Below are positions 655 through 45,500 of a DNA stretch of 64,000 bases, piece by piece (the first letter of the stretch is position 1; every line of letters starts with the position of its first letter). The translations under genes were made by a program, and so were the position numbers. The stretch lies in assembly GCA_030753015.1 (NCBI GenBank), contig JASMDC010000018.1, forward strand, positions 1-64,000, read 5' to 3'. The notes below the pieces were generated by a model, which was not told the DNA's origin, made no database searches, and saw only the letters and a program-made list of their open reading frames with translations. Source of the DNA: Candidatus Undinarchaeales archaeon (lineage in GTDB: Archaea > SpSt-1190 > JASMDC01).

Positions 655-3600
655 TTATTCCTCCTCCTTGTCCTCTTCTTCCTCGTTATCTTTGTCTTCT
701 TTTTTTCCTTCCCCCTCGGTCTCCTTGGCATCCGATTTCTTGTCACTCTTCTTTGCCTTCGATGACTTCTTCTTCTTCTCGACCTTCACAGGGGATTTGA
801 TCTTGGTGACGACCTCGTCCGCATCCTCTTCGACCGAGATGACCTCGCCGTGACCGAAGGCCTCCTCAAGACGCCCCTGCTCGACCGCGCTCACAGAGGA
901 CGTACCACCGGTGGTTATGCCGGTCTTCACCATGGCAACGAGCACGACGACGGCCATGAGGACAAGGAGCAGCCCGCGCAGGTCCTTGCTCGACAGACCG
1001 AAGGGGAGCTCGGACTTGGGCCCGGTCTCAGCGGGCTTGTCAGCAGGTACTCCCTCGACAGGTTCGACCGCGCCAGTGGGCTGGTCAGAGCTGGCCTCGA
1101 TGCGCTCCACCATTGCCTGTTTGGTCTCCTCGGTACTGCCTGTACCCTCCTCAGATGCCATCTCCTGCTCGATCGTGTTGACCTCGACCTCCTCGACGGC
1201 CACCTTGACTGCAGCGGTCTCGGTGTCGGCAACAGCCTCAAGGTTCACCTTCTTCTTCGTGGAGAAGCTGAGCTTCTTCTCTTCCTCTTCCTCGAGCATT
1301 GATAGGTCCCATCCCACGATGGGATCGTCCTCGATGATGGTCACAGCACCAGCGAACACGAGCTCGGATGCGCTCTCGGCGATCTCCTTGGGGATGGACT
1401 GGATGATGGTGACGCCGGTGAGGTTCTTGTCCTTGAGGTTCTTTACTGAGATGGTGAACACGCTGACGTTCTCCGTGGTATCGCCATCTTCGACCTCCAG
1501 CACCTCGGCCTCGAGAGTGATGTTGATCTCTCCCTCTTCGACCTCTATGGTCTCGTTGGCGATCTCATCGGCAGTATCGTCGGTGACGTTGTCACCCTCG
1601 TCGACGGCACGGTTCTTGACGAATTTGGAGACGTGATTTGCTAGATTCTTGCGCTCGACCTTCTTCCTGACCGTTATCACCTTCTTCTCGAGCACCCTGA
1701 CCTTCATCTCTAGCTCCTTGAGCTCGGACAGCTGCTTCTCCAGGTCCTCAAGGGCCTGCTTCGCGTCATCGACCCGCTGGTTGTTGATGGCGCGGCGCGA
1801 GTCGGAGATGGCCTTGTGGAAGCGCTCTTTCTTCTTATCGTCCAGGGCACTAGCGACTAGGATCCTGCGGGCCATGTCATTGTCCTCGGCCTGGACCTTC
1901 TTGAGCATGTCGAGCATCTTCTTCTTCATACCTTGGGAGTCCAGACACGAACGCAGGCAGACCTTGAGGCCGTCCTTCCCGAGTTCGGGGGTGCACTTCC
2001 TGCACTCAAGGCACTTGTCCACGCACTCCGGGTCGCCGTCGGCGCAGGTCTCTTCGCACGCATCCTTCATCGTTCCCCGGCGCTCGTTGACGCACTCCTC
2101 GGCACAGGTATCATCGGGGTCCACCACGCACTTTCGGCAATCACGGCAGATGGGATTGCAGACGTCCTTCTCGCCGAAGGGATCGCAGATGTCGTCGCAC
2201 CGCTTGGCGAAAATCTTGAGCTTGTCCTTGGCGCAGTTTTTCAGGCACTTGTTGGCATCCTTCATGAACAAACACTTGTTGCATGAACCGCACACTAGGT
2301 TGCAGGTCTCCGGGTCCTTCGACCTCGAGCACCGCTTGTCGCACAGGTCGGACATACCGATGCCTGTCTCGGCCTCGACGCACTCGGTAAGACAGGGCCA
2401 CGGGGGCGACTTGTCCGTGCAGTCCGGGCATGACATGCAGGCGAAGGAGCAGATCTCGGGCTCGGTCACACGGCCGCAGAACGTGTCACATTGACGGGTG
2501 TTGTCCGGAGCCCTCGCGACACACGTGTCGTCCCGGCAGGTCATATCCTCGGGGCACCCACAGTCCTTGCAGCAGGTCTCCGAGGTCTCGTTCTCCTGGC
2601 ACTTGCCATCGCCGCACTGCGGACCCTCTTCATCGGGGGGACTGACGCGGCAGAACGGGCGCCGGACTCCTCTATCAGCGATGCAGTTGTTCTCGCTGTC
2701 CGGATCGACCCATTCGTTCTCAAGTGTCTTGAAGCCCCGCGGGCACCTGCCTTGCATTGGTACCATGCAGGCACCACCGGCGCTCGCCTCCTCGGGCTGG
2801 CAGCAGATCATCCTGCTGGGGAGCTCTCCCCCCTCACCGGGCACGGGCTGCTCGCCCGTCTGTTGCTTGAGCTCCTCGGAACACCTGAGATCGGGCCTCA
2901 CGATAATAACGAGAACGTTACCATCGCTAAATCCGTCCTTGAGCGCTTGTACCTTATTGAGACCGACGCGCTGTTCATCTGTGACCTCACGGCCGTCCTC
3001 ATCGTGGAACGTGTCCGCTTTGAATAGGAGCTCGCGCATCCGGATCCCCGTGTCGGCCTCGACGACGGCGACCGTTCCGCCGTCCTTGAGGTCCAGGTAC
3101 CGCACCCTGCGGTTGCACACGAGCGTCCACTGACCTCGCTCAAGCTTGGTGATGAACCGACCGTCGTCCAGGATCTCGATGTCCGCGACGATGGCATCGT
3201 CGTCGCCGGGTCCTTCGGTCGGCTCCTCGCCAGGCCCTCCCGCGAGGGCCGAGAGGGGGTACGGCTTGCAGTCAGTCCGGATCAACGCAGCGAGTACGGC
3301 CCAGTTCCGCGCTATGAGTGGTTTGTCCTCCCCGTCATCAGGTTTGGGGACAAGGAGCGAGACCGTGTCGAAGTGCTTGACGAATCCGTGCAGGGTTCCT
3401 TCGAGCGCCTTGTCTACATTGATACGCACTTCCTCGCTCTTCCCATCGGGCCACACGGCCTTGATTCTCAGCACGCGCTCTTCAGGTTTGATGGCGAGTG
3501 CCTCGAACTGCATCCCGCACACATCGACGGGTTCGTTGAGCTTGAGCAGGATAGGGCGGCCGACGAAGCCGCCTTCCATGGGGCGGTCCCGGAACGCGTA

Positions 3601-5214
3601 GGACGGGGGCTCTGGTAGGTCGGACTCATCAGATCCAAAGGGATCCTCGCTCTCCCCGCACAGGGGGTCACACTCCTTCTGGCACTCATACGGGGGCCGG
3701 TTCTGCTCGAACTCGCACTTCCATTTGCAGGTACCGCAGCGGTCGTAGAGGGGGGGTTTTGGAGGTGGCCTATCGCCCGCGCCACCTTCACAGATGGGTC
3801 GACATCGGTCCTTGCACCTGAATTCCGAGTTCCCCTCCACTTCTGTACACTGGTAGAAGCAATCCCCGCATTCATCGTCTTGTGGCCGCTCCTTGCCGCC
3901 CTCACAGATCGGCTGGCACCGGTCCTTGCATCTGAATTCTGAGTTCCCCTCCACGTCGATGCACTGGTAGAAGCACTTGTCACACTCGTTGCCCGGTGGC
4001 GGCTCCTTCCCGCCCTCACAATCCGGCTGGCATCGGTCCTTGCACCTGAAATCCGAGTTCCCTTCTACCTCTGTGCACTGGTAGAAGCACTTGTCGCACT
4101 CGTTGTCAAAGAGGGGCTCACCGTTACACTGGGGATTACATATCTTATCGCACTCGTAGGACGGCCTGTTCTGCACAACTTCGCACTCGTACTCGCACTT
4201 TCCGCAGGGCGTCGACGTGTCGAAGTCACCTGTGTCGGTGTCCCCTCCACTGCAGTCGTACTCGCAGAATCCCTCGCACTCGGTCGTCGGTCGTCCCATT
4301 TCGTACTTGCATTTGTCCATACAGTTGTCGCACTGGTCACCTGAAGATGTGTAGGTCGTCGAGGGGTTCAGTGTGGGGGTGGGCTCCTCGGCGGTACCAC
4401 TGCAGTCGTACTCGCAGAATCCCTCGCACTCCGTGCTTGAGCGGTGCATCTCGTACTTGCACTTGTCAATGCAATGCTGGCACTGGTCGTTCGAGCTGGG
4501 CTGGTAAGTATCGGTCTCGGTGCCCGAGGCGGTCTCCGAGTCGCACGCAGATCTGCACTGGCTGTCGCACTCGGAATCGGACCGCTTGTCCTCGAACTTG
4601 CACTCCCAGTGGCAGTTCCCACAGATTTGGTCGGAGGGGGGCCTGGGCGGGATGTAGTCGCCGGTGCTCGTTCCACTACCGTCCGTGGGACACTCGGGCG
4701 GGTTGGGCGCCCCGGGTCCAGGGTGTATGCAGTTGGAAGGATTATCCGGATCGACCCACTCGTCCGGCAGGTCCTCGAACATCGGCGGGCATGGTTGATC
4801 AAGGGCGATGGCGCATGCGTCCATGCCCTGTGTGGACTCACAGCACTTGTAGCCGCTGTCACCGCCACCACCGCCGCTGGTGCTATCGGGTCCACACTGT
4901 CCGTCGCTCTTGCAGACGTCACCGGAGGGACAGCCGCAGTCATGGGCGCAGGTGTTACAGTCCTCGCCGTCGGTCGCGAGGCATGTACCATCACCGCAAT
5001 GACTTATGGGGGGCCCGCCCTCGCCCCAGCATCCGCGCGCGTCGGCGTCGGCGTGCGAAGGATCGCAGTGGGGGAAATCGGGCAGATCGCAGGGACAGAT
5101 ATTTGGTTTGGTCTTGCAGTTCTCACCAGCTGCATAGTCACAGTCCAGTGCTATGCCGGGGGTGATGAGCAACACCAGAATGATTGAGATGATCGCATAT
5201 GCCTTCGCCTTCAT
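655..5214 (-). CDS. Giant exported cysteine-rich modular protein (~1519 aa) with C-terminal TM and Lys/Glu-rich tail
   Basis: N-terminal signal peptide (MKAKAYAIISIILVLLITPGIALDC), likely start at the internal Met at 5214 (ORF opens at 5229). Many regularly spaced Cys, CGDGxC...DCGCP motifs, TM LRGLLLVLMAVVVLVAMV, highly charged C-terminal tail. Confidence 0.85.
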   Translation of the reverse strand: MKAKAYAIISIILVLLITPGIALDCDYAAGENCKTKPNICPCDLPDFPHCDPSHADADARGCWGEGGPPISHCGDGTCLATDGEDCNTCAHDCGCPSGDVCKSDGQCGPDSTSGGGGGDSGYKCCESTQGMDACAIALDQPCPPMFEDLPDEWVDPDNPSNCIHPGPGAPNPPECPTDGSGTSTGDYIPPRPPSDQICGNCHWECKFEDKRSDSECDSQCRSACDSETASGTETDTYQPSSNDQCQHCIDKCKYEMHRSSTECEGFCEYDCSGTAEEPTPTLNPSTTYTSSGDQCDNCMDKCKYEMGRPTTECEGFCEYDCSGGDTDTGDFDTSTPCGKCEYECEVVQNRPSYECDKICNPQCNGEPLFDNECDKCFYQCTEVEGNSDFRCKDRCQPDCEGGKEPPPGNECDKCFYQCIDVEGNSEFRCKDRCQPICEGGKERPQDDECGDCFYQCTEVEGNSEFRCKDRCRPICEGGAGDRPPPKPPLYDRCGTCKWKCEFEQNRPPYECQKECDPLCGESEDPFGSDESDLPEPPSYAFRDRPMEGGFVGRPILLKLNEPVDVCGMQFEALAIKPEERVLRIKAVWPDGKSEEVRINVDKALEGTLHGFVKHFDTVSLLVPKPDDGEDKPLIARNWAVLAALIRTDCKPYPLSALAGGPGEEPTEGPGDDDAIVADIEILDDGRFITKLERGQWTLVCNRRVRYLDLKDGGTVAVVEADTGIRMRELLFKADTFHDEDGREVTDEQRVGLNKVQALKDGFSDGNVLVIIVRPDLRCSEELKQQTGEQPVPGEGGELPSRMICCQPEEASAGGACMVPMQGRCPRGFKTLENEWVDPDSENNCIADRGVRRPFCRVSPPDEEGPQCGDGKCQENETSETCCKDCGCPEDMTCRDDTCVARAPDNTRQCDTFCGRVTEPEICSFACMSCPDCTDKSPPWPCLTECVEAETGIGMSDLCDKRCSRSKDPETCNLVCGSCNKCLFMKDANKCLKNCAKDKLKIFAKRCDDICDPFGEKDVCNPICRDCRKCVVDPDDTCAEECVNERRGTMKDACEETCADGDPECVDKCLECRKCTPELGKDGLKVCLRSCLDSQGMKKKMLDMLKKVQAEDNDMARRILVASALDDKKKERFHKAISDSRRAINNQRVDDAKQALEDLEKQLSELKELEMKVRVLEKKVITVRKKVERKNLANHVSKFVKNRAVDEGDNVTDDTADEIANETIEVEEGEINITLEAEVLEVEDGDTTENVSVFTISVKNLKDKNLTGVTIIQSIPKEIAESASELVFAGAVTIIEDDPIVGWDLSMLEEEEEKKLSFSTKKKVNLEAVADTETAAVKVAVEEVEVNTIEQEMASEEGTGSTEETKQAMVERIEASSDQPTGAVEPVEGVPADKPAETGPKSELPFGLSSKDLRGLLLVLMAVVVLVAMVKTGITTGGTSSVSAVEQGRLEEAFGHGEVISVEEDADEVVTKIKSPVKVEKKKKSSKAKKSDKKSDAKETEGEGKKEDKDNEEEEDKEEE
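3788..4111 (-). repeat. In-gene tandem repeat, three near-identical 114-bp (38 aa) units
   Basis: NECDKCFYQCTEVEGNSDFRCKDRCQPDCEGGKEPPPG repeated three times with high nucleotide identity. Boundaries approximate. Confidence 0.85.
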
Positions 5215-5421
5215 GAGAATGGCCTCCAAAACCGTTGAGAGCGTACGATTTATAGCTCTTTATCAGGCGGAGGTGTGGATACCTTATTAAGGTATTGTAA
5301 TAGGATACGAACAATCGGGCCCCGCGGGTCCATGATGAACGTTATCCCGGCTCGCCGGAACCCTGCGTTCTGACCAACAGTTATAAAGCCGAAGGGACGT
5401 ATCCGAGAACGGTCCGTCACC

Positions 5422-6450
5422 GTGTTCCTGCGCAACGCCCTCAAGACGGCATCGGCCATCCTACGACTGCGCCTCCTGGGTACCAGAACACCGCTGTCGG
5501 TCATCCTCAGCGTCACCAACCGGTGCAACTTCGACTGCGCCTACTGCCCCGTCAGGTCCCACACCATGCCCGAGATGTCCACCGGCGAGCTGCTCGGACT
5601 CATCGACGAGATGGCGGACGCCGGTACCCAACGGGTGGGACTGATGGGTGGCGAGCCGATGATGCGCGACGACATCGGTGAGGTCATCGCCCGGTGCAAG
5701 CGGCGGGGGATGTTCGTCACCATGGGCACCAACGGTTCCATGCTAACCGAGGACGACAACCTGGACAAGGTGCGCGGCGTGGACGCGCTAGTGTTCTCCA
5801 TCGACGGGCCGTCGGCCCACGACCGCTACCGGCACGAGGGATCCTACCAGCTCGTCCTCGACGCCATGAAGCTCGCTCGTCGCAATGGCATCGAGGTCTG
5901 GAACACCGCGGTGCTCACGGACCTCTCCGTGGGTGACATCGACATCCTCCTGGACCTCTCCGAGGAGCATGGTTTCGCAACCAACTTCTCACCCCTCATG
6001 CACTCCGAGGTGTGTGCCGACGACCGCCGTCACCCATCCCTCGACAGGGAAGGGTACATCCGGGCCGTGGACAGGCTCATCGAGGAGAAGCGCAGGGGGA
6101 GGCCCATCATCAACTCTCTGTCGTACCTCAGGTACATCAGGGAGTGGCCGGACCTCTCCGAGACCCTGCACCTCGGCGACACCCCCAAGGGCGCCCCCCG
6201 CCTGCCGTGCTACGCCAGCAGACTCTTCTGCTATGTCGAATGCAACGGCGACGTCTATCCCTGTAACACGCTAATCGGTCGGTACCAGCCGCCGAACGCC
6301 TTGGCCACGGGGTTCCGTACCGCCTTCGAGTCGCTCGGCGAACGCCCCTGCACCGCCTGCTACTCCTTCGGCTACACCGAGCTCAACCTCGTTTTCGGCC
6401 TCCGATATGATGCGGTGCTCAACGCCCTCAGTCTCGCCCGTAAGCGGTGA
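5422..6450 (+). CDS. Radical SAM protein (with C-terminal Cys region)
   Basis: GTG start. CNFDCAYC cluster motif, GGEPMMR motif, C-terminal Cys-rich segment (LPCYASRLFCYVECNGDVYPCNT...CTACYS) of SPASM/twitch type. Confidence 0.88.
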   Translation: MFLRNALKTASAILRLRLLGTRTPLSVILSVTNRCNFDCAYCPVRSHTMPEMSTGELLGLIDEMADAGTQRVGLMGGEPMMRDDIGEVIARCKRRGMFVTMGTNGSMLTEDDNLDKVRGVDALVFSIDGPSAHDRYRHEGSYQLVLDAMKLARRNGIEVWNTAVLTDLSVGDIDILLDLSEEHGFATNFSPLMHSEVCADDRRHPSLDREGYIRAVDRLIEEKRRGRPIINSLSYLRYIREWPDLSETLHLGDTPKGAPRLPCYASRLFCYVECNGDVYPCNTLIGRYQPPNALATGFRTAFESLGERPCTACYSFGYTELNLVFGLRYDAVLNALSLARKR

Positions 6451-18974: not shown

Positions 18975-19009
18975 GGATAACCTTTTTATTGCGGGGTAAC
19001 CTTTTTATT
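18975..19009 (+). promoter_or_regulatory. Duplicated promoter-like element GGrTAACCTTTTTATT
   Basis: GGATAACCTTTTTATT and GGGTAACCTTTTTATT at a 19-bp offset, just upstream of the 19036/19024 start. Confidence 0.5.
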
Positions 19010-19023
19010 ATAACGCGTGAACG

Positions 19024-20487
19024 GTGGACACCATGGATAGACGACTGATAGCTGTATTTACTCTCTTCCTGATAGCTGGACTTGCTATGGCAGCCCCTCG
19101 GGTCCCCACGGCCGATGGCAACATCGAAGGTATCACCATCAGCGGGAGTGTCACAACCGATCCTGATCCGATCCCGACGATGGAGTTCGGGGCGGCGACG
19201 CACTCGCGGGATCCCTGTGATAAGCATACTGAGGGGGCGTGCACGGGAGACACCAATTGCAAGTGGAAAGCCGGGGAGACCACCCCTGAGGGGGATGTGC
19301 TCCCTGCCTCGTGCATTTCGGATGGGAGCGAAATGGGGGAAGGGCCAGCGACGGCTGGCGGATCCATGATCAAGGTCATGCTCAACGGTATCGCCGCAGA
19401 TGCTGATGGCGAGGCCAACCTCTTCATCTCCGGATTCGGCCAGGCGACACTCCGCAGTGATTCGCACAGTACGATCCTGCTGCCCGCAGGAACGGACTCG
19501 GCGAACCTAGAGGTGGCGCACGAATCATTCCCTCAGGGCCAGGCCACCCTCACCGTGTGCATCAATAAGACGGCTTGCCCGGACTGGAGCGCCGAGTGCG
19601 CCGCCTGCAAGCACAAGCAGGTGACGATCGGCACTACTACCTACGATGACACTGGTAATGTCGTCGACATAGACAGCCAGCCGCCCATGATCTCCTTTGA
19701 CGCGGGGCAATTCAATGCCGATCCTGACTGGAACATGAACCTCCTCGAGGACGTGACCGCGAACATCGTCGTGATCGAGTTGGACTCACCCTGGCAGATG
19801 AACTGCCGGTTCGTCGGGGTCGATGCGAACAATGCTCAGAACGACTCCATGTGCGCCCCTGGCGTGTTCGAGCCCAACGTTTGCGAGGGGCGGCAGGCCG
19901 CCACGCCCCCCGAGGGCGCGAAGGTGAAGATAACCATCGGGAAGGCGATGGCCCTCAACGGCTGGAAGGAAGGACGCTACGAGATCCATTGCCACGCTTG
20001 GGACTTCGCCGGTGGTGGAGACTCACAAGGGAACACCGGGACCGAGTGGGTCCAGGGGTTCCAGGTGGGGACCACCACACTTGTCACTCCGCCTCCACCC
20101 CCCGAGACCCCCCCTGATGTCCCACCCGAGGGTACTGTACCCCCTGAAGGTTCGGGAACTGCCGAGCCTCCCGCTCCGACCGACGCGGGAGGCCTCCCCA
20201 TACCTACCGGGACACCCGGCCCCGGTGAACCTGAGCCAACCGCGACCGATAAACCGATCCAGCCGGCCCCGGCCACCTGCGGCGACAACGTCTGCCAGCA
20301 GGACGAGAGCCAGGAGAACTGTTGCAATGACTGCGGTTGTCCCGTCGGATGGAGCTGTTCGGGTGGCGTGTGCGCCGAGTCCTCACCCCCCACACCCAAG
20401 CCGCCGGCCCCCAACACCGCCGTCGTCGCGGTCATTGCCATACTCGTGGTCGTTGGTGGCTTCTACGCCCTCGGGCTGAAGAAGTAG
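19024..20487 (+). CDS. Exported protein with C-terminal CGDxxC/DCGCP Cys motif and C-terminal TM
   Basis: Signal peptide (LIAVFTLFLIAGLAMAAP), Pro/Thr-rich linker, CGDNVCQQDESQENCCNDCGCPVGWSCSGGVC, TM AVVAVIAILVVVGGFYALGLKK. Confidence 0.85.
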   Translation: MDTMDRRLIAVFTLFLIAGLAMAAPRVPTADGNIEGITISGSVTTDPDPIPTMEFGAATHSRDPCDKHTEGACTGDTNCKWKAGETTPEGDVLPASCISDGSEMGEGPATAGGSMIKVMLNGIAADADGEANLFISGFGQATLRSDSHSTILLPAGTDSANLEVAHESFPQGQATLTVCINKTACPDWSAECAACKHKQVTIGTTTYDDTGNVVDIDSQPPMISFDAGQFNADPDWNMNLLEDVTANIVVIELDSPWQMNCRFVGVDANNAQNDSMCAPGVFEPNVCEGRQAATPPEGAKVKITIGKAMALNGWKEGRYEIHCHAWDFAGGGDSQGNTGTEWVQGFQVGTTTLVTPPPPPETPPDVPPEGTVPPEGSGTAEPPAPTDAGGLPIPTGTPGPGEPEPTATDKPIQPAPATCGDNVCQQDESQENCCNDCGCPVGWSCSGGVCAESSPPTPKPPAPNTAVVAVIAILVVVGGFYALGLKK

Positions 20488-20502
20488 GCGGGAACGGGCC
20501 CC

Positions 20503-22035
20503 GTGGCGTTCCTCTGGACAGGAGGGGCTGGTAGCGGCGGGTGCGCGGTGTGCCGGGCCTTGCGCCCGGCACTCCCGACCTATCCGGAAGATCCATCTAT
20601 CGATGAGGTAGTGGCCCTTCTCGATAGTGTCCCTTTGAACGAGGAACTGGTGCTCGTCGGCGAGGAACCAACCCGAAGAGAGGACCTCGCTGATCTGGTG
20701 CGTACAGTTCGAAAGGAACGCCCTGGCGCGATCGTCCGCATCGTGACCGATGCTGCACGGTGTGCGGACCGCGCGTACGCGACCTCCTTATCGGAGGCGG
20801 GCGTTGACCGGTTCACCGTGCGCCTCTTCGGTCCTCGTCCCGCGGTCCACGATGCCGAGACAGGCACACACGGGAGCTTCGATGCCAGTGTGGCCGGGAT
20901 ACGCACGCTCGTCGCCCTTGGCCTCTGGGTCGAGGTCGAGGCCGTAGCGACACGACGCGCCCTTCCCCATCTTACCGAGACAGCTCGGTTCATCGCCACA
21001 TCGCTGCGTGGTGTTGCACAAGTTCTTGTACGCAATCCCCTGTGGGGCGACAACGGACTGGTCCGAGGAACGTCCCACAAGGTGCATCCGCACGAAGCCT
21101 ACCCACCGGTGGACATGGCGGCAGATATCATCGCTCACCACGATATCCCAGTGCGGCTAGAGGGCTTCCCCTTCATCGTGACCGGCGGGAAGGCGCCTTA
21201 CCCGTTGACCGACAGCAAGCTCGCCGGTTGGCCCATAGGGCTCGCCCTGGAGGTGATCGCTATGGAAGAGGGGCTCAAGCCCGCAGCCCGGGTATCTCTT
21301 GATCTGGAACGTACCAAGACCCTAGCAGGCTTCTGTCGCGGCCGTGGGTTGACATTGGAACAGGCGAGCTTCCGTCATCGTTTCGGTCCCAACGAGGCAG
21401 GCCTGCGCGAAGACTCGTCCGATCCCCGGGCGAGGCTCGTCTATTGCTATCTGGCGCCGGAGAAGGCCGCAGCGAAAGCGGTTCGGGACGCCGATGCAGC
21501 AGGTGATGATGATGCTCTGGGCGAAGCCCTCGGGTACCCGGCGTGCTGCCGCAGGTTCTACGCCCGGAACGTCACCGCAGGACATCACCCCGACCTGGCC
21601 ATGGCCGCATACAACGAGGGACCAGCGGACACATATCCTTTCGAGCTGAACACCCTGTCCACATACATAACAGGCCTGGTGTTCCACCAGCCACATACCT
21701 ATACCTGTGCCCCGAGCCTCCGGATGGCGCGTGATCTGATGGCCGCTCTTCGTCGAAGTGAGCCTCTCCTGGCTACCGCCGTGGAGCACGCCCTACGATG
21801 CCATGTAGTGTACGCGTCCCCGGCCAGCCGCATCTCCCTGTGGGGCCGCCGTAAGGGTGGTCGCATAGAGGTCGAGAACCTCATCCCATTCGGCGACGCT
21901 ATCCGTCCGGACCTTGCGAAAGTGGATACTGTGGAGCTGGTAGAAGATGCCGTCATGCTCCGTGCAGGGGAGAGGGTGATCGCTAGGATAACTGCTCCTG
22001 GTGGGGTGCGGCCTCTGCTCGCTACCTTTGAATAA
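20503..22035 (+). CDS. Degenerate radical-SAM-like domain fused to a DUF483-like domain
   Basis: GSGGCAVC in place of CxxxCxxC; GEEPTRREDL resembles the radical SAM GGE motif. C-terminus EALGYPACCRRFYARNVTAGHHPDLAM...YPFELNTLSTYITGLVFHQPHTYTCAPS is DUF483-like. Confidence 0.75.
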   Translation: MAFLWTGGAGSGGCAVCRALRPALPTYPEDPSIDEVVALLDSVPLNEELVLVGEEPTRREDLADLVRTVRKERPGAIVRIVTDAARCADRAYATSLSEAGVDRFTVRLFGPRPAVHDAETGTHGSFDASVAGIRTLVALGLWVEVEAVATRRALPHLTETARFIATSLRGVAQVLVRNPLWGDNGLVRGTSHKVHPHEAYPPVDMAADIIAHHDIPVRLEGFPFIVTGGKAPYPLTDSKLAGWPIGLALEVIAMEEGLKPAARVSLDLERTKTLAGFCRGRGLTLEQASFRHRFGPNEAGLREDSSDPRARLVYCYLAPEKAAAKAVRDADAAGDDDALGEALGYPACCRRFYARNVTAGHHPDLAMAAYNEGPADTYPFELNTLSTYITGLVFHQPHTYTCAPSLRMARDLMAALRRSEPLLATAVEHALRCHVVYASPASRISLWGRRKGGRIEVENLIPFGDAIRPDLAKVDTVELVEDAVMLRAGERVIARITAPGGVRPLLATFE

Positions 22036-22045
22036 GGAGGATCTC

Positions 22046-23986
22046 ATGAGCGACGCGCCATCTGAGGACGGTCGCGTGTTCCGCGGTACCGTCGCTGAGC
22101 TCGCTGATGCTATCGCCGATATGGTGGACGTCGGTGTGCCCGTTCAGTTATCCCTCGAGGTCCCTCCGGCGGACCGGACCCCTGCTCTGGGGCGCCGCCT
22201 ACGGGACGCTCTCACAGCGTTGCGCGAGGGCGGGATCTCCGTCCAGATGCGTACGCCTCTCCCCCTCTGCCTTCTCGGTGCCGGGGACCCGGCCTGGGGT
22301 ATCGATGTGCCCACGTCATGTGATGGGTGCAAGGACGCCTGGACAGTTGAGTACGGACGCGTGGTGCTATGTCGAGTCGCCGATAGGTGGTGCGGTCCTC
22401 CGCGCGCCTCCTTCCCGAGCGCTACTGCAGTGGCCGATTACGCTCGCCTCTATCGCGAGGCCGCACCTGTTCCCGACGGGTGTCGGACCTGCCGTCACTG
22501 GGCACGCGGGACCTGCCACTGGGGCTGCCGGGCGTCACCCCGCTCGTTCGCACCTGTCCGGCGGGCCGCAGGCAAGCGGATCACCCTGGTGTGGCCTCCC
22601 ACCGTGGACGGTACCGCACCGCGCCCCTCGCTCAACCTCGCTTACCTGACCGCGGCACTGGAGCATGCCGATCCGTCCCTTGAGGTGTCCTGCATCGATA
22701 CCAACCTCGTGCTTGACCTCGATAACGTCATCACCGTACCACTCGCCGAGGCCCGGCGACACCTTTCACACACTCTCTCGCTCATCGAGCGGACCCGGCC
22801 CGACATACTGGCCGTTGGTGCATGGACCTCCAATCTCCCGTTCGCTCTGGAGCTGGTCCGTGCCTTCAGACCGCGCCATCCCGACGTGCCCGTTGTGATG
22901 GGCGGCTATCCCGCCACCGAGGGGCCGGTCGAGCTCCTCTCCATCTTGTCGGAGGTCGACGTGCTCGTGCGTGGCGAAGGCGAGGCCACCCTCCCTGGTC
23001 TCGTGGCCCGGTTAATCACGGGACGGCCCATCGACGACGTGCAGGGGCTGTCCTACCGCAGCGGGTCCAAGGTCGTACACACGCCGCCGGCGGTACCCCT
23101 CAAGGACCTGGACGCGTTACCCTTCCCCTCCTACGAGCGGTTCGTGGGTGCCCGGCCCGGTCGCGCGGTGACCGTGAGCACAAGCCGCGGTTGCCCATTC
23201 TCTTGCACCTACTGCTCCAACGAGAAGATGTACCAGGCCATGCGCCAGAACTCGCCTGAGTACGTCGTCCGTGAACTTGCCGACCTCCACAAGCGGTGGG
23301 GCGTGACGCGCATCGAGTTCTCCGACAACCTCTTCACGGCAGATCCACACTGGGTCGCCCGGTTCTGCGAGGTCCTCGATGAGAAGGGTTCGGACCTCGT
23401 GTGGACGTGCTCGTCACGTGTGGACACGCTGACCACTGACCTCATAGACCGGATGCGCGCGGTCGGCCTGGAGAGCATCTATCTGGGCCTGGAGAGCGTG
23501 GTCCCGGACAGCCTGCGGTTCATGGGCAAGACCGGAGATCCCACTAAGTACGTTGAGCGGGCCCGGCGGCTCATAGCCCATGCCGCGTCCTCCAGTGTCG
23601 GGATGAGCGTCGGGGGCATCGTAGCCCTCCCGCACGAGGACCGCGCGGATATGCAGGCCACCGTGTCGTTCCTCGAAGAGATGGTCACGACCAATGCGCC
23701 GTACGTGAAGCCCAACCTGTTCTCTCTCATCCCCTTCCCGGGAAGTCCCCTCTGGGACGCTGTCCAGCGGGGCGATCACGCTCTGCTCCCGGTGAGGAAC
23801 CCTGCCTTCTCAATCTGGAACGGCGGGCTGTTCCGTGAGCTCTACTGGCACCTACCGTGGGTGGTTCCGGGAGCGTTCGAGTTCGCCAACGACCATCTCG
23901 AGCAGAACGAGGTGGAGCGGTTCGTCATCGAGGCTCGTGCAAGGTTGCAGGAGCTTGCACCAGAAGGATTCGAGGCGAAGTTCTGA
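22046..23986 (+). CDS. B12-binding radical SAM protein with extra N-terminal Cys-rich (SPASM-like) region
   Basis: TSRGCPFSCTYCSNEKMYQ, cobalamin-binding-type domain (RPDILAVGAWTSNLPFALELVRAFRPRHPDVPVVMGGYPAT), SD aggagg upstream of ATG at 22046. Confidence 0.9.
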   Translation: MSDAPSEDGRVFRGTVAELADAIADMVDVGVPVQLSLEVPPADRTPALGRRLRDALTALREGGISVQMRTPLPLCLLGAGDPAWGIDVPTSCDGCKDAWTVEYGRVVLCRVADRWCGPPRASFPSATAVADYARLYREAAPVPDGCRTCRHWARGTCHWGCRASPRSFAPVRRAAGKRITLVWPPTVDGTAPRPSLNLAYLTAALEHADPSLEVSCIDTNLVLDLDNVITVPLAEARRHLSHTLSLIERTRPDILAVGAWTSNLPFALELVRAFRPRHPDVPVVMGGYPATEGPVELLSILSEVDVLVRGEGEATLPGLVARLITGRPIDDVQGLSYRSGSKVVHTPPAVPLKDLDALPFPSYERFVGARPGRAVTVSTSRGCPFSCTYCSNEKMYQAMRQNSPEYVVRELADLHKRWGVTRIEFSDNLFTADPHWVARFCEVLDEKGSDLVWTCSSRVDTLTTDLIDRMRAVGLESIYLGLESVVPDSLRFMGKTGDPTKYVERARRLIAHAASSSVGMSVGGIVALPHEDRADMQATVSFLEEMVTTNAPYVKPNLFSLIPFPGSPLWDAVQRGDHALLPVRNPAFSIWNGGLFRELYWHLPWVVPGAFEFANDHLEQNEVERFVIEARARLQELAPEGFEAKF

Positions 23987-38076: not shown

Positions 38077-41000
38077 CTAACCGACAGTCACGGTGCACTC
38101 ACAGGCGCATGAGCCGGGATCGGTGCGTATGCGGCACTTCTTCCGGTCGAGCCAGAGAGTGCAGGTCGGCAGGCAGTCGTTGCACGACACACGGAGCGTG
38201 CAGCCGGAGTAGTCGATACCGTGGTCGATGAACACGCTCTCGCCCTGCACGACCGTCGGCTCCCGCACCTCGAGCCGCGCGAGAGGGAAGAGGTCCGCGT
38301 TCACGATGCCTTGGGAAGTCGGTTCGACGGCCCACTCACGTCCGTGTACGTCCCTGGCCCTCACCACGATGGTGTAGGAGTTACCCGGTTCGGCCATGAA
38401 GGACCCAGACATAACGGTCGTGGATCCCTCGCCCCAGATGGCGACCTGTGTATCAGCGTTGCTCCCTTCGACCGCCAGCGACCAACCATCGATGACAGCA
38501 ACGGACACCATTCCCTCGAAGGGCACGGTCGCGATGTCGGACAGGTCCACGGTGGCATGGACCCGCGTGGGCTCATAGAACACCGCAGAGGTGAGCCCCT
38601 CATCTGTCTCGAAACCCGCTTCGGAGATCCTGAGCTCGGGCCGCGTGATCTCGAGGTAGGCATTGGGGTAGTCCATGCGGAACTCGAGCGCGTCCTCAAG
38701 GCACCAGAAGGTCATGACCTCCCCGGAGCAGGAGTTCGAAGGCAGGCCTTGTTCAGGGAGGGTCTGGTCGAACACCGTCATGTTGTTCTCGTCCATGGCC
38801 TCCACCCTGAGCCGGAGCACGAAACCGACGTACTCTGAGGGGGTCTCCACCTCCCGTGTCTCGAGTCTGCTGCCCTCGAGCACGTCCATCACCATGATTG
38901 ACGCCAGAGATCCATGGACCTCTTGTCCCTCTGCGTCCACCATGGAGACGGACACGGTGAGGGGAAAGAGAGCGGACTTGACGGTGACGATCCCTTTGAC
39001 GCGGGTACCGGCATGTGCCTTGGTCGCCCGCTCGCCGTCCACCGTGAACCAGGCGTCCTGGACTGCTACTGTGCCCATTGGCAGCACCTTCGAAATGGAG
39101 CCCACGGCCGTGGCGACAGTCCTCCCCTGCTCGTCGTACACCTCGAGCACCGGCTGCACCGTCTTACCTACAAGGTCCTCTTCCATTTCCTTGAGGTTCG
39201 AGAGCAGTGTTACGTCGGTGCCGGGGTCCACGGACGAGACGGGGATGGTGGCCATGATGGCTGAGAACAGCTCCTCACAGGAGCACTCGCACACAGCGTC
39301 CTCGGGACAGAAGGGACATTCACAGGCATCGAAGAGCCTGAGCTTGACCTCGGACCTACCGTAGAACGAGAGGAATCCGGCGTTGGCCACGTCCGCTCGG
39401 AACCGCACGCTCTCCCCACCATAGAGCGCTTGAACCTCGCTCTGGCCTCGGAGGGTCGCCAGGCTCACACTCAGCTCGGGAGTCAGCGCCTTGCACATGC
39501 GCGCGCACACGTCCCATATCCCCGTGTCCCGCTCGTCACGTGGACAGCTGAGGATGCACTCGAATGTCGTATCCGGCCAGTCCCGTTCCCCCTCTCCTTC
39601 CCAGCAGTCGTCGACACAGACACGTGACTCCCTGGTCTCGGGGAACTGCGTGACACAGGTCCGTTCACACGCTACTTTGGCACCCATGCAACGGCGTGTG
39701 CATGCGTCCGTGCGTTCGCGGTTGCTGCCGAACAGGCTGTGACATGCTCGGCGGCACGAGGAGCTGCCCATGCACGTGGACGTGACGGGCCGTTCGTCGA
39801 ATCCGTACCGGCAGCACAGCCCGATGGGGGAGCGCCCTGTCTGGCAGCGGTCGAAGAGGGGTCCGCCGCTCAGGGCGTGGGATGGTGACTCGCACAGCTC
39901 GGGATCGAACGGGCACTCGCCCTCCACGCCCTCGCCACAAAGGGCACGCGTGGTCGACCAGGGGACCGGTGTCTGTGGCCCGGGCTCGTACACGTCGGCG
40001 AACATACCCTCGCAGCAGGCCTGGATGCTCGCCCGATCGGTATCGTTGAGCAGGGGATCTGCGCACTGGTACGCCGTCGTCCGCCACTCAGTGCCCAGTC
40101 GGCACACGCACAGCTCGAGCTGGGCGTGGCAATGGGCCATTGACGTGCCATAACACTTCTTGCACACGTCCTCGCACAGCGAGACCTTGGGGATCTTGTG
40201 GACGAGGCAGCTCAAGGTATCTACGAATACGTCCTCCACATCGGTGTCCCTGATGATCTCGATGGTGTCCATGTGCTCCTCGGACCACTCGTCCATGTTG
40301 ATGTCCTTGATATTGGCGATGGCCGGCTCGTGGGGGGCACACCCGCCGCGGTAGCCTCCGCATCCGGGGACCGGTGGCTTGGGCTGGGGAAGCGGGGGCA
40401 GACTACCGGGCTTCATTCCCTCGGGCCGCTTTCCGCACTCCTTGACGTTGAAGTTACGACAGAACACGGCCCATTGGCGGTGCGGATCGGCGTTCGGCGG
40501 CTCCTCGCCCGTTTTGTACATCAGGTTCGGATTCGTGCCCGGTGGGAAGTGGAGGTCCTGGATCTCCACGTCAGAGCAGAACTTGCTGACCTCGGAAGGG
40601 AAGTTGTGGCGGAATGTGGTGAGGTCGGCAAGGAGCTTGTCGTTCTGGAGGAAGAGGAGCATGTCGGTGGTCTCCTCCTGGAACTCATCGGAGCTTCTGA
40701 TGCGGTCCGGCTTACCGTCCGTCGCCTCGTACTTGTCGATCCTCAGTGCGATGGCGGCCAGTTCGTCCAGGTTCTCCTGGACATGTGTGTAGGTCGCGCC
40801 CTGCTCCACGTTGCTCTGGTACTTTGCCCTGACGGCCTCCAGCTGGCCGATCATCTTGGGCAGCTCCTTGAGCATGTTCCCCAGGTAGTCGAGGATACGC
40901 TCCAGCTGGTCCTCCACCTCGCAGGGGGTTCGGTAGCTCTTCTCGTCCTCCTCTACCTGTGACGCTGGCGGGCGGTACGCGGCGAAGTCGAAGGGCGTGT

Positions 41001-42543
41001 GAGCGCAGTGGTGCCCCTCGGTGGGGGGCGGGGGCCAGGCGTACTCCCCGGAATCGTAGTCCTTGAGACGTGTTCCGATCACCTCGTCGAGCTCGCACAC
41101 GTCGTGGAGATCGGCAAGCTCATGTGTGCACTGGCGTATCTTACGTGGTGAGGGGCGGCTGTTCTTGGCCTTCTTGGTCTCCAGTGAGCGCCAGGCCTCG
41201 GCGATGATGTGGTTGGGCCTGTAGCAGCCCGCGTTCATGTAACCGTAGGGATCGAACTGCTCGTTGATGCACGGCCGCACACAGCAGGCGATCTGTCCCT
41301 TGGGATTGACGTTGTCAAGACCGGTGTCGCATCCCTTGAAACCGCCGTGCTCGTCCGGCTGACCGATGGCCTTGTTGTCCCCGCAGAAGTAATCGTTGTG
41401 CCAGCACTCGTGCACCTCGCCCACCGGCTTTCGGGGCACCCCGTGCGTGTCGCAGTTGTCCCCGTAGTTGCAGGGATAGGGATCGCACAGAGGTTGACAC
41501 ATGGACATCCCGTTGTTGCCCTCGACGCACTTTTCCTTGTCCATGCAGGCCACCCTGGCCGTGCGGAAGCACGAACTGGGCGAGGGGAGGTCGCCGATCT
41601 CCACCTCGAGCACGCAGCCACCGTACTTGTCGTTGAACTCTTCGATGGAGCCCTCGCACAGGTTGCACTGCCTCTTCGCAGCGTTGTAGATGTTGCGCAG
41701 GTCCTTCTCCACCGACGTGTAGAACTTCTTGAAATTTTCATAATAGGCGATCGTGGTCTCGACGAAGTCGGCCATGCTCTCGTAGTTGGCGGCGATCTTG
41801 CTCACGTCCTCGGGACAGTCCAACAGGCTCACGTTGAGCTCGTCAGGCTCGTATCCCGTGTACTCCGGCTTCTCAAGCCCCGCGATCATGGTGTTGCATA
41901 TGTACGGTTCGCCCTCAGTGAGGGGGTTCTCCTCGCAAGGGCGGAGGTTGAGGTCGGGACGCGGTCCGCCGTTGGCCTCACCATATCCTTTGTCAACGCA
42001 CACCGCGCCAACGTACCCGTCGCCCCCGAAGGCGCACTGCCAGGTGCAGATCTTCATCTTGAAGGACTGGCGACACTGCTCGTCAGCGCCGCCACCGTCC
42101 CCCCCGCCGATGCTCAGGGGACCACAGTGGCCCACGCTGTGGCCCGAGATGGCGATCGATTCACAGCCGGCTTCGTCATCTGAGAACTCGTCCTCGCATT
42201 CGCAGTCCTCGCCCGGCAGGCAGTCCTCGCCCGACTCCCAGCAGGCGTTGTCGCCGTCGTACAGCCCCACCGAGCCACGGCACTGGAAGAACTGGCCAGG
42301 GGAGCTCTCCTCCAACTCACAATCATCGGACGCGCCCTCGGTCTCCATGATGCACCAGGTCTCCATGCCCGGCTCCAGCTTCGGGGAGCATGCAGAGGGT
42401 GCCAGGGCTAGGTCCATGGACAGGACGGTGAGGAGGGCGAGCGTGGCGACGAGCAGTATAGCATGTGCCAGGGGGGAGCAAGGATCCCCTCCTTTCCCCT
42501 TCTTCCAGGTCAGCGCCACCGGGATGTCCGCCCTGTCATGCAT
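38077..42543 (-). CDS. Giant exported cysteine-rich protein, paralog A (~1488 aa)
   Basis: Signal peptide AHAILLVATLALLTVLSMDLALA after a short N-terminus (ORF opens at 42594). Many Cys, conserved segments with the adjacent upstream gene, C-terminus GSCACECTVTVG. Confidence 0.85.
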   Translation of the reverse strand: MHDRADIPVALTWKKGKGGDPCSPLAHAILLVATLALLTVLSMDLALAPSACSPKLEPGMETWCIMETEGASDDCELEESSPGQFFQCRGSVGLYDGDNACWESGEDCLPGEDCECEDEFSDDEAGCESIAISGHSVGHCGPLSIGGGDGGGADEQCRQSFKMKICTWQCAFGGDGYVGAVCVDKGYGEANGGPRPDLNLRPCEENPLTEGEPYICNTMIAGLEKPEYTGYEPDELNVSLLDCPEDVSKIAANYESMADFVETTIAYYENFKKFYTSVEKDLRNIYNAAKRQCNLCEGSIEEFNDKYGGCVLEVEIGDLPSPSSCFRTARVACMDKEKCVEGNNGMSMCQPLCDPYPCNYGDNCDTHGVPRKPVGEVHECWHNDYFCGDNKAIGQPDEHGGFKGCDTGLDNVNPKGQIACCVRPCINEQFDPYGYMNAGCYRPNHIIAEAWRSLETKKAKNSRPSPRKIRQCTHELADLHDVCELDEVIGTRLKDYDSGEYAWPPPPTEGHHCAHTPFDFAAYRPPASQVEEDEKSYRTPCEVEDQLERILDYLGNMLKELPKMIGQLEAVRAKYQSNVEQGATYTHVQENLDELAAIALRIDKYEATDGKPDRIRSSDEFQEETTDMLLFLQNDKLLADLTTFRHNFPSEVSKFCSDVEIQDLHFPPGTNPNLMYKTGEEPPNADPHRQWAVFCRNFNVKECGKRPEGMKPGSLPPLPQPKPPVPGCGGYRGGCAPHEPAIANIKDINMDEWSEEHMDTIEIIRDTDVEDVFVDTLSCLVHKIPKVSLCEDVCKKCYGTSMAHCHAQLELCVCRLGTEWRTTAYQCADPLLNDTDRASIQACCEGMFADVYEPGPQTPVPWSTTRALCGEGVEGECPFDPELCESPSHALSGGPLFDRCQTGRSPIGLCCRYGFDERPVTSTCMGSSSCRRACHSLFGSNRERTDACTRRCMGAKVACERTCVTQFPETRESRVCVDDCWEGEGERDWPDTTFECILSCPRDERDTGIWDVCARMCKALTPELSVSLATLRGQSEVQALYGGESVRFRADVANAGFLSFYGRSEVKLRLFDACECPFCPEDAVCECSCEELFSAIMATIPVSSVDPGTDVTLLSNLKEMEEDLVGKTVQPVLEVYDEQGRTVATAVGSISKVLPMGTVAVQDAWFTVDGERATKAHAGTRVKGIVTVKSALFPLTVSVSMVDAEGQEVHGSLASIMVMDVLEGSRLETREVETPSEYVGFVLRLRVEAMDENNMTVFDQTLPEQGLPSNSCSGEVMTFWCLEDALEFRMDYPNAYLEITRPELRISEAGFETDEGLTSAVFYEPTRVHATVDLSDIATVPFEGMVSVAVIDGWSLAVEGSNADTQVAIWGEGSTTVMSGSFMAEPGNSYTIVVRARDVHGREWAVEPTSQGIVNADLFPLARLEVREPTVVQGESVFIDHGIDYSGCTLRVSCNDCLPTCTLWLDRKKCRIRTDPGSCACECTVTVG

Positions 42544-42562
42544 TACCTTCCAGTCCACCGGG

Positions 42563-45500
42563 CTATGTGGCCGAGGAGATGCACTCGCAGGCACAGGTGC
42601 CCGGATCAGATTTGATGGTGCATGACTTCCGGTGGAGCCAGAGGGTGCACGTAGGCAGGCATTCCTCGCACGCCACCTGGATGTTGCAGTCCGAGTAGCT
42701 GATGGACGAGTAGATGTACGTCGCCTCGCCCTGTACCAGGGTCTTCTCCTTCGCCTCCAGACGGGCCAGTGGGAAGAGCTCGGGATTCACCAGGCCCGAG
42801 GCCGTGGGGACGATGGCCCACTCCCTGCCCTGGTGGTCCGTGCCCCGGACCATGATCACGTAGGTGTTCCCGGGCTGAGCGGTGAAGTACTCCGACCACG
42901 CTGTAGTATCCTGCTTGCCAGCGAGGGTGATGTCCACCTGTCGAGAGCTTCCCTCGACCTCCACGGACCAGGAGTCCAGAGCGGAGATGGTCACCATCCC
43001 TTCGAAAGGTATGGTGGCGATGTCCGTCAGCTTGATGGAGGCCCGTACCTCTGTCGCCTCGTACATGACCGCCGATGACAGCCCGTCCTTGGTCTCGAAA
43101 ACCGCCTCATTGAGCTTCAGCTCCGGCCGGCGGATCTCAAGGTAGGCGTCCGGGTAGTCCATGCGGAAGTCCACGGTCTCCTTCTGGCACCATGCGGTCA
43201 TCACGTCGCCAGCACAGGCGTCCGAGGCGAGCCCCTGTTCAGTGAGGGTCTCGGCGATGACGGTGGTGTTGTCCTCGTCCATGGCCTCGACATGGAGGCG
43301 CAGCACGAATCCGACGTACTGGGCGGGAGTTTCAACCTCCAGCGTCTCCAGCTGGCTGCCGTCGAGCACGTCCTCGATCTCGATAGCGCTACGTGAGCCC
43401 TCGATCTCGTTCCCGTCCGCGTCCACCATGGACACGTACACGGTGATGGGGAAGAGGACTGATTTCACCTTTATAGCGCCCTTGATCTTCGAACCGGCAT
43501 AGGCCTTCGTGTCACGTTCGCCGTCCACGACGAACCAGGCGTCCTGGATGGCCACCTTCCCCATTTCGAGGACCTTCGAGATAGGTCCCTGAGCGGAGCG
43601 TATCAACCGGTTGTCCTCGTCGTACAGCTCCATCACGGGCTGGACGGTCTTGCCCGCGAGCCCTTCGTCCACGCCCTTGGGATCTGAGAGAAGGACCGAG
43701 GACTCCCCTGGCTCCACCAGGGGGACCGGGATCGTGGCCAGGATGGCGCTGAACTGGTCATCGCACGCACATTCGCACACAACCCCCTCGGGGCAGGGCG
43801 GGCAGTCACACGAGTCGAAGAGCCTGAGCTTCACCTCGGCCCGTCCACGGAACGGCAGGAAGCCCTTGTTGTCCACTGCGGCCTTGAACCGGATGTCCTC
43901 ACCTGCATAGAAGGCCTGGACGTCGCTCTCACCGCGCAGTGCCGACAGCCGGACGTCGAGCTCGGGTGCGAGCGCCTTGCAGATACGCTGACACACCTCT
44001 TGGACCTTTTCGTCCTTCTCGTCGGGCCTGCAATTACGGATGCAATCGAACGTGTACTCGGGCATCTCCTCCTGTTCCTGCTTCCAGCACTCGTAGATGC
44101 ATCGCCGCTCCTCACGGATGTCCAGGGACTGTGTCAAACACTGCTGCTCGCACGAGACCTCGGCCGTCATGCACCGGGCGGTGCACGCGTCCACGCGTTG
44201 TGGGTTCCCCCTGAACTTCTCCTGGCAGCCCTTCCGGCATGACGCGCTCTCGGCGCAGGAATAGGTGATGGGCTTCTCCTCGAACCCGAACTTGCAGCAC
44301 AGTCCCGTCTCGGAGGTGCTGGTCTGACAATAGTCGTAGAGCGGGCCCGCGTTGAGGACGTGGTCGGGCGTCGGGCACAGCTCCTTGTCGAAGAGACAGT
44401 TCTCGTCCATCCCCACAACGCACTGACGATTGGCCGTACCGCCACCGGGCTTGTACACGACGTGAGGTATCCCCGTTCCGGAAGTGGGTGCGCTCACGTC
44501 AGCGTACATGGCCTCGCAGCAGGCCTGGAACTGGGCCTTGTCGGTGTCGTTGTGGATGGGCTCTTGGCATTCGTACGCGGTGGTCTTCCACTCGGTCCCC
44601 AGCCGGCATACGCACAGACCCAGCTGGGCATGACAGTGGGCAATGGACGTGCCATGGCACGACTTGCAGATGTCCTCGCACATCGATACCGTCGGGATCT
44701 TGTGGCGGAAGCAATCTCCCGAGTCGACGAACATATCCCGGAGATCTAGCTCACGGAACTCCTGGAGAGCCTCCATGTGCACCTCGCCCCACTCGTCCAT
44801 GTTCTGGTCCTTCCAATGGAACATCTGGGGGACGTGAGTGCATCCTCCCCGGTATCCACCGCACCCGAGGATGGGGGCTCCTTCGGCGTTCCCGCTCATC
44901 ATCATGGTGGTCATGGCGAAGCTCTGCTCGTTACCGGACTGGCCGCCTCCGCCTGGGATCACGTTCCACCGGCTGCAGAAAGCACCCCACTTGTCGCAAC
45001 CGTCGCCCTTGTGCTTCATTTCCTTGGGGGTTCCCCCTGGGAAAGCGAGCTCGCAACCGGCAGCGTCGAGCTTGCAGGCCACAGCGTTCCAGGAGTGCTT
45101 CTTAGTGAGGTCGGTGAAGAACTCGCTCGTCTGGAAGAACTTGACGAGCTTTGTGAGCAGCTTCTGGAACTTGTCGGTGTCCAGTTCCTCCTCGTCGCCG
45201 CTCTTCTCGAGCTTGTCGATGTTCCCCATGATGGCGACCAGTTCGTCCATGTTCTTCTTGATCTCGACGTAGGAGGCGCCCTGGTTGATGGAGGTCTGGA
45301 ACTTCGTCTTCACCTTCTTGAGCTCGGCGATGGCCTTGGGCATCTGGGTGAGGAGGTTCTTGAGGTACTTGAGCGTCTTCTTCATGTCCTTCTCCACATT
45401 ACAGGCGATCTCGTCCTTGTCCATCTCGCAGATGTCCCTAAGGTCGGCGAGCTTCTTCTCGCACTCCCGCACGCCCACGGGGGCCACCACGGCACGCTTG

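Follow-up and report, generated by a model that had tools for sequence, protein, structure and literature searches.

Two genes of a three-gene operon from an uncultivated Candidatus Undinarchaeales archaeon may form an accessory module made from parts of the Hxs (His-Xaa-Ser) system, a putative peptide-maturation system with its main locus elsewhere in the same genome. The operon occupies positions 19,024 to 23,986 of the window, the 64,000-nucleotide stretch of DNA that was analysed; the source genome (G000) comprises 3.85 Mb in 117 contigs. Gene 1 encodes an exported surface protein with a cysteine motif, gene 2 a degenerate HxsC-like radical SAM (S-adenosylmethionine) fold joined to a DUF483-like domain, and gene 3 a cobalamin (B12)-binding radical SAM protein. 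In the proposed module, gene 3 would supply the catalysis as a cobalamin-dependent radical SAM enzyme, probably methylating or otherwise modifying a peptide. Gene 2 would be a non-catalytic HxsC paralog retained as a binding or scaffold subunit, in which the DUF483 domain may contact the substrate or a partner. The substrate would be either HxsA, in trans, or gene 1, in cis. Taken as a whole, with gene 3 as the catalyst and gene 2 as a non-catalytic subunit of an Hxs-type peptide maturation, this is a proposal to which we give slightly more credence than doubt. It draws on the following features of genes 2 and 3 (aa, amino acids).

20503..22035, + strand: gene 2, degenerate HxsC-like radical SAM fold and DUF483-like domain, 510 aa
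20542..21177, + strand: HxsC-like region of gene 2, aa 14-225, from alignment to the HxsC profile
21244..21996, + strand: DUF483-like domain of gene 2, aa 248-498, from a profile match and a model
22046..23986, + strand: gene 3, B12-binding radical SAM protein, 646 aa
22046..22600, + strand: N-terminal region of gene 3 with nine cysteines (first 185 residues), unique, with marginal similarity to the C-terminal part of HxsC
22733..23002, + strand: B12-binding domain PF02310 of gene 3, aa 230-319, 53.0 bits
23174..23674, + strand: radical SAM core PF04055 of gene 3, aa 377-543, 76.0 bits, with intact CPFSCTYC

Gene 2 matches the radical SAM family PF04055 with 36.4 bits (cut-off 29.5) but has lost the CX3CX2C motif. 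The sequence in its place is GxxxCxxC, in which the first cluster cysteine is replaced by glycine and two of the three cluster cysteines remain. GEEP stands in place of GGEP, and the similarity to HxsC ends ahead of the HxsC C-terminal cluster region, which is absent. Gene 2 would be unable to hold the usual cluster and is most likely a binding or scaffold subunit, acting by way of its HxsC-like fold and its DUF483 domain. The top NCBIfam matches were HxsC4 (2e-18) and HxsC (5e-17), and the score against the HxsC model TIGR03977 was 61.8 bits, under the curated cut-off of 267.9. Profiles built without gene 2 matched it at 1e-32 (HxsC) and 6e-37 (DUF483). The window sequences were not part of the local DUF483 and B12 profiles, whose matches to genes 2 and 3 therefore owe nothing to those genes. 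The paralog that matches gene 2 best belongs to the Hxs locus of the same genome (E 7e-25) and itself matches HxsC at 2.9e-52. In the tree, gene 2 belongs to a nine-row clade (support 100/99) together with this paralog and intact HxsC–DUF483 fusions. The pseudo-SAM/SPASM protein TIGR04347, named as an inactive radical SAM-like fold, resembles gene 2 weakly (6.7e-5); however, gene 2 scores only 22.3 bits against the cut-off of 525.

The family DUF483 (PF04467) is so far without an assigned function. Gene 2 scores 11.5 bits directly against the Pfam model, under the gathering cut-off of 25, and its DUF483 domain was recovered via a relative, G000:C95:118851-119843, which passes the cut-off. Gene 2 retains the GYPxCC...PxxxxC motif of the family. 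Across 54 sequences, the CC pair, two prolines, and the last cysteine of the motif are invariant, and one more cysteine is nearly so. It is this nearly invariant cysteine that is replaced by histidine in gene 2, which reads CC...H...C as against mostly CC...C...C in the family. The predicted structure of the domain is confident (predicted local distance difference test, pLDDT, 91.4; predicted template modelling score 0.89). A Foldseek search of the PDB with the model gave no match at E<=0.001, and PDB sequence searches with DUF483 profiles gave no credible match. The best Foldseek match was 2guk, a P. gingivalis protein of unknown function (E 3.3e-3; template modelling score, TM-score, 0.30 by query and 0.69 by target); no function was transferred from 2guk to DUF483.

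Both the B12-binding and the radical SAM domain of gene 3 score over their cut-offs, and its CX3CX2C motif is intact. The sequence-only reading of the operon had described gene 3 as a B12 radical SAM protein and gene 2 as a degenerate radical SAM protein fused to DUF483, and the profile matches and motif states agree with it on each of these points. The best family match of gene 3 is ApyD (NF050148), a B12 radical SAM family of ribosomally synthesized and post-translationally modified peptides (RiPPs). The score of 168.6 bits is far under the cut-off of 750, and the unique Cys-rich N-terminus also sets gene 3 apart from that family. This N-terminus bears a marginal similarity to the C-terminal part of HxsC: 2 shuffles in 1000 attain its 2.0-bit score, and hhalign gives E 0.004. 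Its cysteine spacing, CX8GX4C and CX2CX7CX3C, recalls SPASM without profile support, the HxsB profile included. AlphaFold prediction of gene 3 from a four-row alignment yielded no usable model (mean pLDDT 48.3).

The Hxs system is mentioned as a putative peptide-maturation system credited to Haft and Basu, and its parts are the precursor HxsA, the radical SAM maturases HxsB (TIGR03978) and HxsC (TIGR03977), and HxsD (TIGR03976) (PMC9062424). Among the 84 radical SAM matches in the source genome is one HxsB (418 bits, cut-off 370), which belongs to an Hxs locus (L031) on contig C40, separate from the contig of the operon. This locus also contains an HxsA3-like His-x-Ser precursor (C40:163800-164135), present in a single copy in the genome, HxsD-like open reading frames (ORFs) beside HxsB and HxsA, and several HxsC-like genes. 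The HxsA-like precursor scores 49.2 against NF038309, under the cut-off of 65. One HxsC-like ORF of the locus (L031:8665-9600) holds a short run of unknown bases, which appears as XXXX in its translation. The operon shares with the Hxs system the HxsC lineage of the N-terminal half of gene 2 (residues 14-225). It differs from the Hxs system in several respects: HxsD is absent from it, as is HxsB, and no HxsA-type His-x-Ser precursor was found in the window; the HxsC-like domain, joined here to DUF483, is missing the catalytic motif; the putative role of catalyst falls to a B12 radical SAM protein; and an exported Cys-motif protein is co-encoded. Although assembled from Hxs-lineage parts, the operon does not itself qualify as an Hxs system.

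DUF483 also recurs within Hxs-like loci elsewhere. We took 59 DUF483 loci from named genomes, 53 of which have a DUF483 ORF over threshold. The loci come from several bacterial phyla as well as from DPANN archaea; in 20 of the 53, DUF483 has a radical SAM gene no more than 1 kb away. Among 297 archaeal genomes, HxsB is present in 9 of the 12 that have DUF483, compared with 29 of the 297 overall (Fisher p=4e-8). Counted by family, which corrects for shared ancestry only crudely, the proportions are 7 of 9 and 18 of 112 (p=2.6e-5). The association of DUF483 with HxsB and HxsC in DPANN archaea and several bacterial phyla points to peptide maturation and not to DNA modification. L087-L099 and other Woesearchaeota loci carry DUF483 genes, some as tandem pairs, with no radical SAM gene in the flanks examined.

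The two-domain architecture of gene 2 recurs in an HxsC–DUF483 fusion of 635 aa from the archaeon GLR71 (G123) and an Aenigmatarchaeota metagenome-assembled genome (MAG; loci L047/L115, L114), and GLR71 also encodes two HxsC–B12-radical-SAM fusions of 710 and 698 aa. The GLR71 fusions lie on contigs C23 and C86, which probably represent one cluster because 600 bp at their ends, within a prepilin-peptidase-like gene, are 95% identical. The HxsC–DUF483 fusions are 27% and 25% identical to gene 2 over the halves and share its clade, but they retain CX3CX2C and the C-terminal HxsC region, both of which gene 2 has lost. One Omnitrophota locus (L112) combines HxsC and DUF483 with a radical SAM gene whose B12-binding match is below cut-off, and a Chlorobiaceae MAG encodes a single 1014-aa radical SAM/DUF483 fusion, also with a sub-cutoff B12-binding match (L124:7835-10879). 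HxsC-type genes, DUF483, and more radical SAM genes occur in Marinimicrobia (L100) and Deltaproteobacteria (L092), for which the B12 assignment comes from the local profile alone and lacks confirmation by Pfam. An HxsC-like protein without CX3CX2C adjoins DUF483 in an Hxs cluster of Nanohalarchaeota (L120:8717-9775). A further HxsC-like protein without the motif, of weak HxsC similarity, is fused to DUF483 (L132:8978-10846). A prepilin-peptidase-like (A24) gene recurs in radical SAM/DUF483/HxsC loci (L112, L120, L091, L115/L047, L048, L086/L050, and L058). Pilin-like export of HxsA is suggested by HxsA leaders (EEGRISK plus a hydrophobic stretch), which resemble class III signal peptides.

The link between DUF483 and radical SAM proteins has already been published. 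In Thermus phages Cumys and phiMa, a radical SAM gene, a DUF483 gene, and one more gene make up a locus, and InterPro lists fusions of DUF483 with radical SAM or methyltransferase domains; the authors suggested DNA modification because cyanobacterial homologs adjoin deazapurine genes (PMC11437467). The phage module resembles the operon in having a radical SAM gene beside a DUF483 gene. It differs, by its description, in being phage-borne and in that neither a B12 radical SAM protein nor HxsC lineage was reported for it; one archaeal DUF483 query gave no phage match. The link of DUF483 to Hxs appears to be new. In the open-licence literature, where the Hxs system is mentioned only in passing, we found no link of DUF483 to HxsB or HxsC, no inactive HxsC–DUF483 fusion, and no catalytically dead radical SAM partners in RiPP systems; this absence is weak evidence of novelty because the search covered open-licence papers only. 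Since the Hxs association points to peptide maturation, the DNA-modification and peptide proposals are testable against each other. An inactive HxsC–DUF483 protein that has been retained offers a handle on the binding partners of the non-catalytic Hxs parts.

The first gene of the operon has to be considered as a possible substrate.

19033..20487, + strand: gene 1, exported Cys-motif surface protein, C-terminally anchored, 484 aa from ATG
20281..20373, + strand: Cys-motif domain of gene 1, GDNVCQQDESQENCCNDCGCPVGWSCSGGVC
20413..20484, + strand: C-terminal hydrophobic segment of gene 1, NTAVVAVIAILVVVGGFYALGLKK, read directly from the sequence

We used the ATG at 19033 as the start of gene 1, where the GTG at 19024 had been used before. 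The protein reads as a signal-peptide-like N-terminus, a Cys-rich ectodomain, a Pro-rich linker, and the hydrophobic segment, which is probably a membrane anchor. Its cysteine pattern is CGDxxC...CCxDCGC...C, and it has no match among Pfam or NCBIfam families. Gene 1 has four paralogs in its own genome, on contigs C28, C51, C95, and C117. The paralog on C28 is followed about 38 bp downstream by a B12 radical SAM gene, the product of which is distantly related to gene 3 (28% identity), with prepilin-peptidase-like and HxsC-like genes nearby. The other three paralogs are without a radical SAM neighbour. The genome contains approximately 27 Cys-motif ORFs; a radical SAM match is found no farther than 3 kb from seven of the 27 (3.0 expected, p=0.025) and no farther than 1.5 kb from three (1.8 expected, p=0.26).

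Very large surface-type ORFs (1391-1524 aa) are present in the window at 655-5229, 38077-42594, and 42563-46738, the first of which bears a Cys-motif domain and adjoins a divergent radical SAM gene (5422-6450). On the small contig C72 of the same genome, a Cys-motif/TPR surface protein, a radical SAM gene, and a solo DUF483 gene lie within about 8 kb (L030:3141-11331). A radical SAM gene resembling the one in that locus adjoins DUF483 in genome G043 (L050:7689-8957).

The sequence-only reading had proposed a maturation operon in which the radical SAM pair modifies the co-encoded surface protein. The idea of maturation stands in so far as the families are tied to peptide maturation, by the HxsC lineage of gene 2 and the sub-cutoff ApyD match of gene 3, though in a system that is most likely of the Hxs type. 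Modification of gene 1 by genes 2 and 3 in cis, before or during export, would suit their position in one operon with a 15-bp gap, the arrangement around the C28 paralog, the large Cys-rich surface proteins that are also found in several DUF483/Hxs loci, and the excess of Cys-motif genes near radical SAM genes at the 3-kb limit. That excess is gone at 1.5 kb, however, Cys-motif proteins are abundant in the genome, three of the four paralogs do without a radical SAM neighbour, and the C28 enzyme is only distantly related to gene 3. Given the paralog contexts and the weak proximity signal, gene 1 was rejected as an established substrate and is kept as a rival candidate that we consider rather unlikely. 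A more elaborate version, in our view a long shot, is a split-function maturase in which gene 2 would be the substrate arm and gene 3 the catalyst with a relocated HxsC C-terminal cluster region, with the Cys-motif surface protein as the target; if true, it would make the operon an Hxs offshoot that has exchanged the short His-x-Ser peptide for a large surface protein. Alternatively, the target of the pair might be a lipid or a small cofactor, in which case its sharing an operon with gene 1 would be incidental. Gene 3 matches BchE (126.9 bits) and HpnJ (95.6 bits), both far under the cut-offs, and archaeal genomes commonly encode B12 radical SAM enzymes. The HxsC origin of gene 2 and the way DUF483 tracks HxsB/HxsC-type genes speak against such a role, which we regard as improbable.

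Decay would account for the lost catalytic cysteine, the changed GGEP, the missing C-terminal cluster region, and the long branch of gene 2, and would leave gene 3 a solitary enzyme and the operon a relic. Against this, the 510 codons of gene 2 are fully open, the CC motif is still present in its DUF483 half, which is modelled with confidence, and Nanohalarchaeota also retain an HxsC-like protein without CX3CX2C beside DUF483; we think a relic highly improbable. The least probable explanation, to which we give very little weight, is that the DUF483–radical SAM pair modifies nucleic acid, as proposed for the Thermus phages and cyanobacterial loci from the phage locus, the InterPro fusions, and the homologs beside deazapurine DNA-modification genes (PMC11437467). 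That proposal rests on genome context alone, a look at the operon and its immediate flanks revealed no DNA-modification gene, and the archaeal DUF483 genes studied here accompany HxsB and HxsC. The accessory-module proposal has its own difficulties. The branch of gene 2 in the tree is long (2.64), HxsA, HxsB, and HxsD are encoded outside the operon on another contig, and many Woesearchaeota copies of DUF483 occur without radical SAM genes. The phage and cyanobacterial radical SAM–DUF483 pairs were tied by their authors to DNA modification (PMC11437467), and B12 radical SAM enzymes are so diverse that the sequence of gene 3 does not fix its substrate. The gene 2–gene 3 pair was found in no other genome searched. 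Class and phylum searches found no ortholog of gene 2 in nine other genomes, and a genome-contig scan with full-length gene 2 gave 55 pattern matches, none of them a relative. The sequence-only reading had named recurrence of the pair elsewhere without the Cys-motif protein as contrary to its proposal. This is seen only in part: homologs of the parts occur in Hxs-type loci, some with HxsA-type precursors, but no second copy of the exact pair turned up.

The layout of the operon is as had been read from the sequence. Its three ORFs, 19024(GTG)/19033(ATG)-20487, 20503(GTG)-22035, and 22046(ATG)-23986, are all on the + strand, with gaps of 15 bp between genes 1 and 2 and 10 bp between genes 2 and 3, and a Shine-Dalgarno-like element precedes gene 3.

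19001..19014, + strand: A/T-rich TATA-like element CTTTTTATTATAAC 5' of gene 1, read directly from the sequence
22035..22040, + strand: AGGAGG, Shine-Dalgarno-like, upstream of the gene 3 ATG at 22046

The TATA-like element is probably the promoter of the operon. A near-tandem repeat, GGNTAACCTTTTTATT, is located at 18977-19012, immediately 5' of gene 1. Downstream of gene 3, a GH31 glycosidase gene begins at 24193. The transcription unit would most simply comprise genes 1–3, because the GH31 gene is preceded by a separate A/T-rich element of its own. Genes 1 and 2 share a reading frame, with one TAG stop and five codons between them (20413-20560), and read-through of the TAG would fuse the gene 1 membrane anchor to the HxsC-like domain of gene 2. 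The shared frame is most simply viewed as a one-in-three coincidence.

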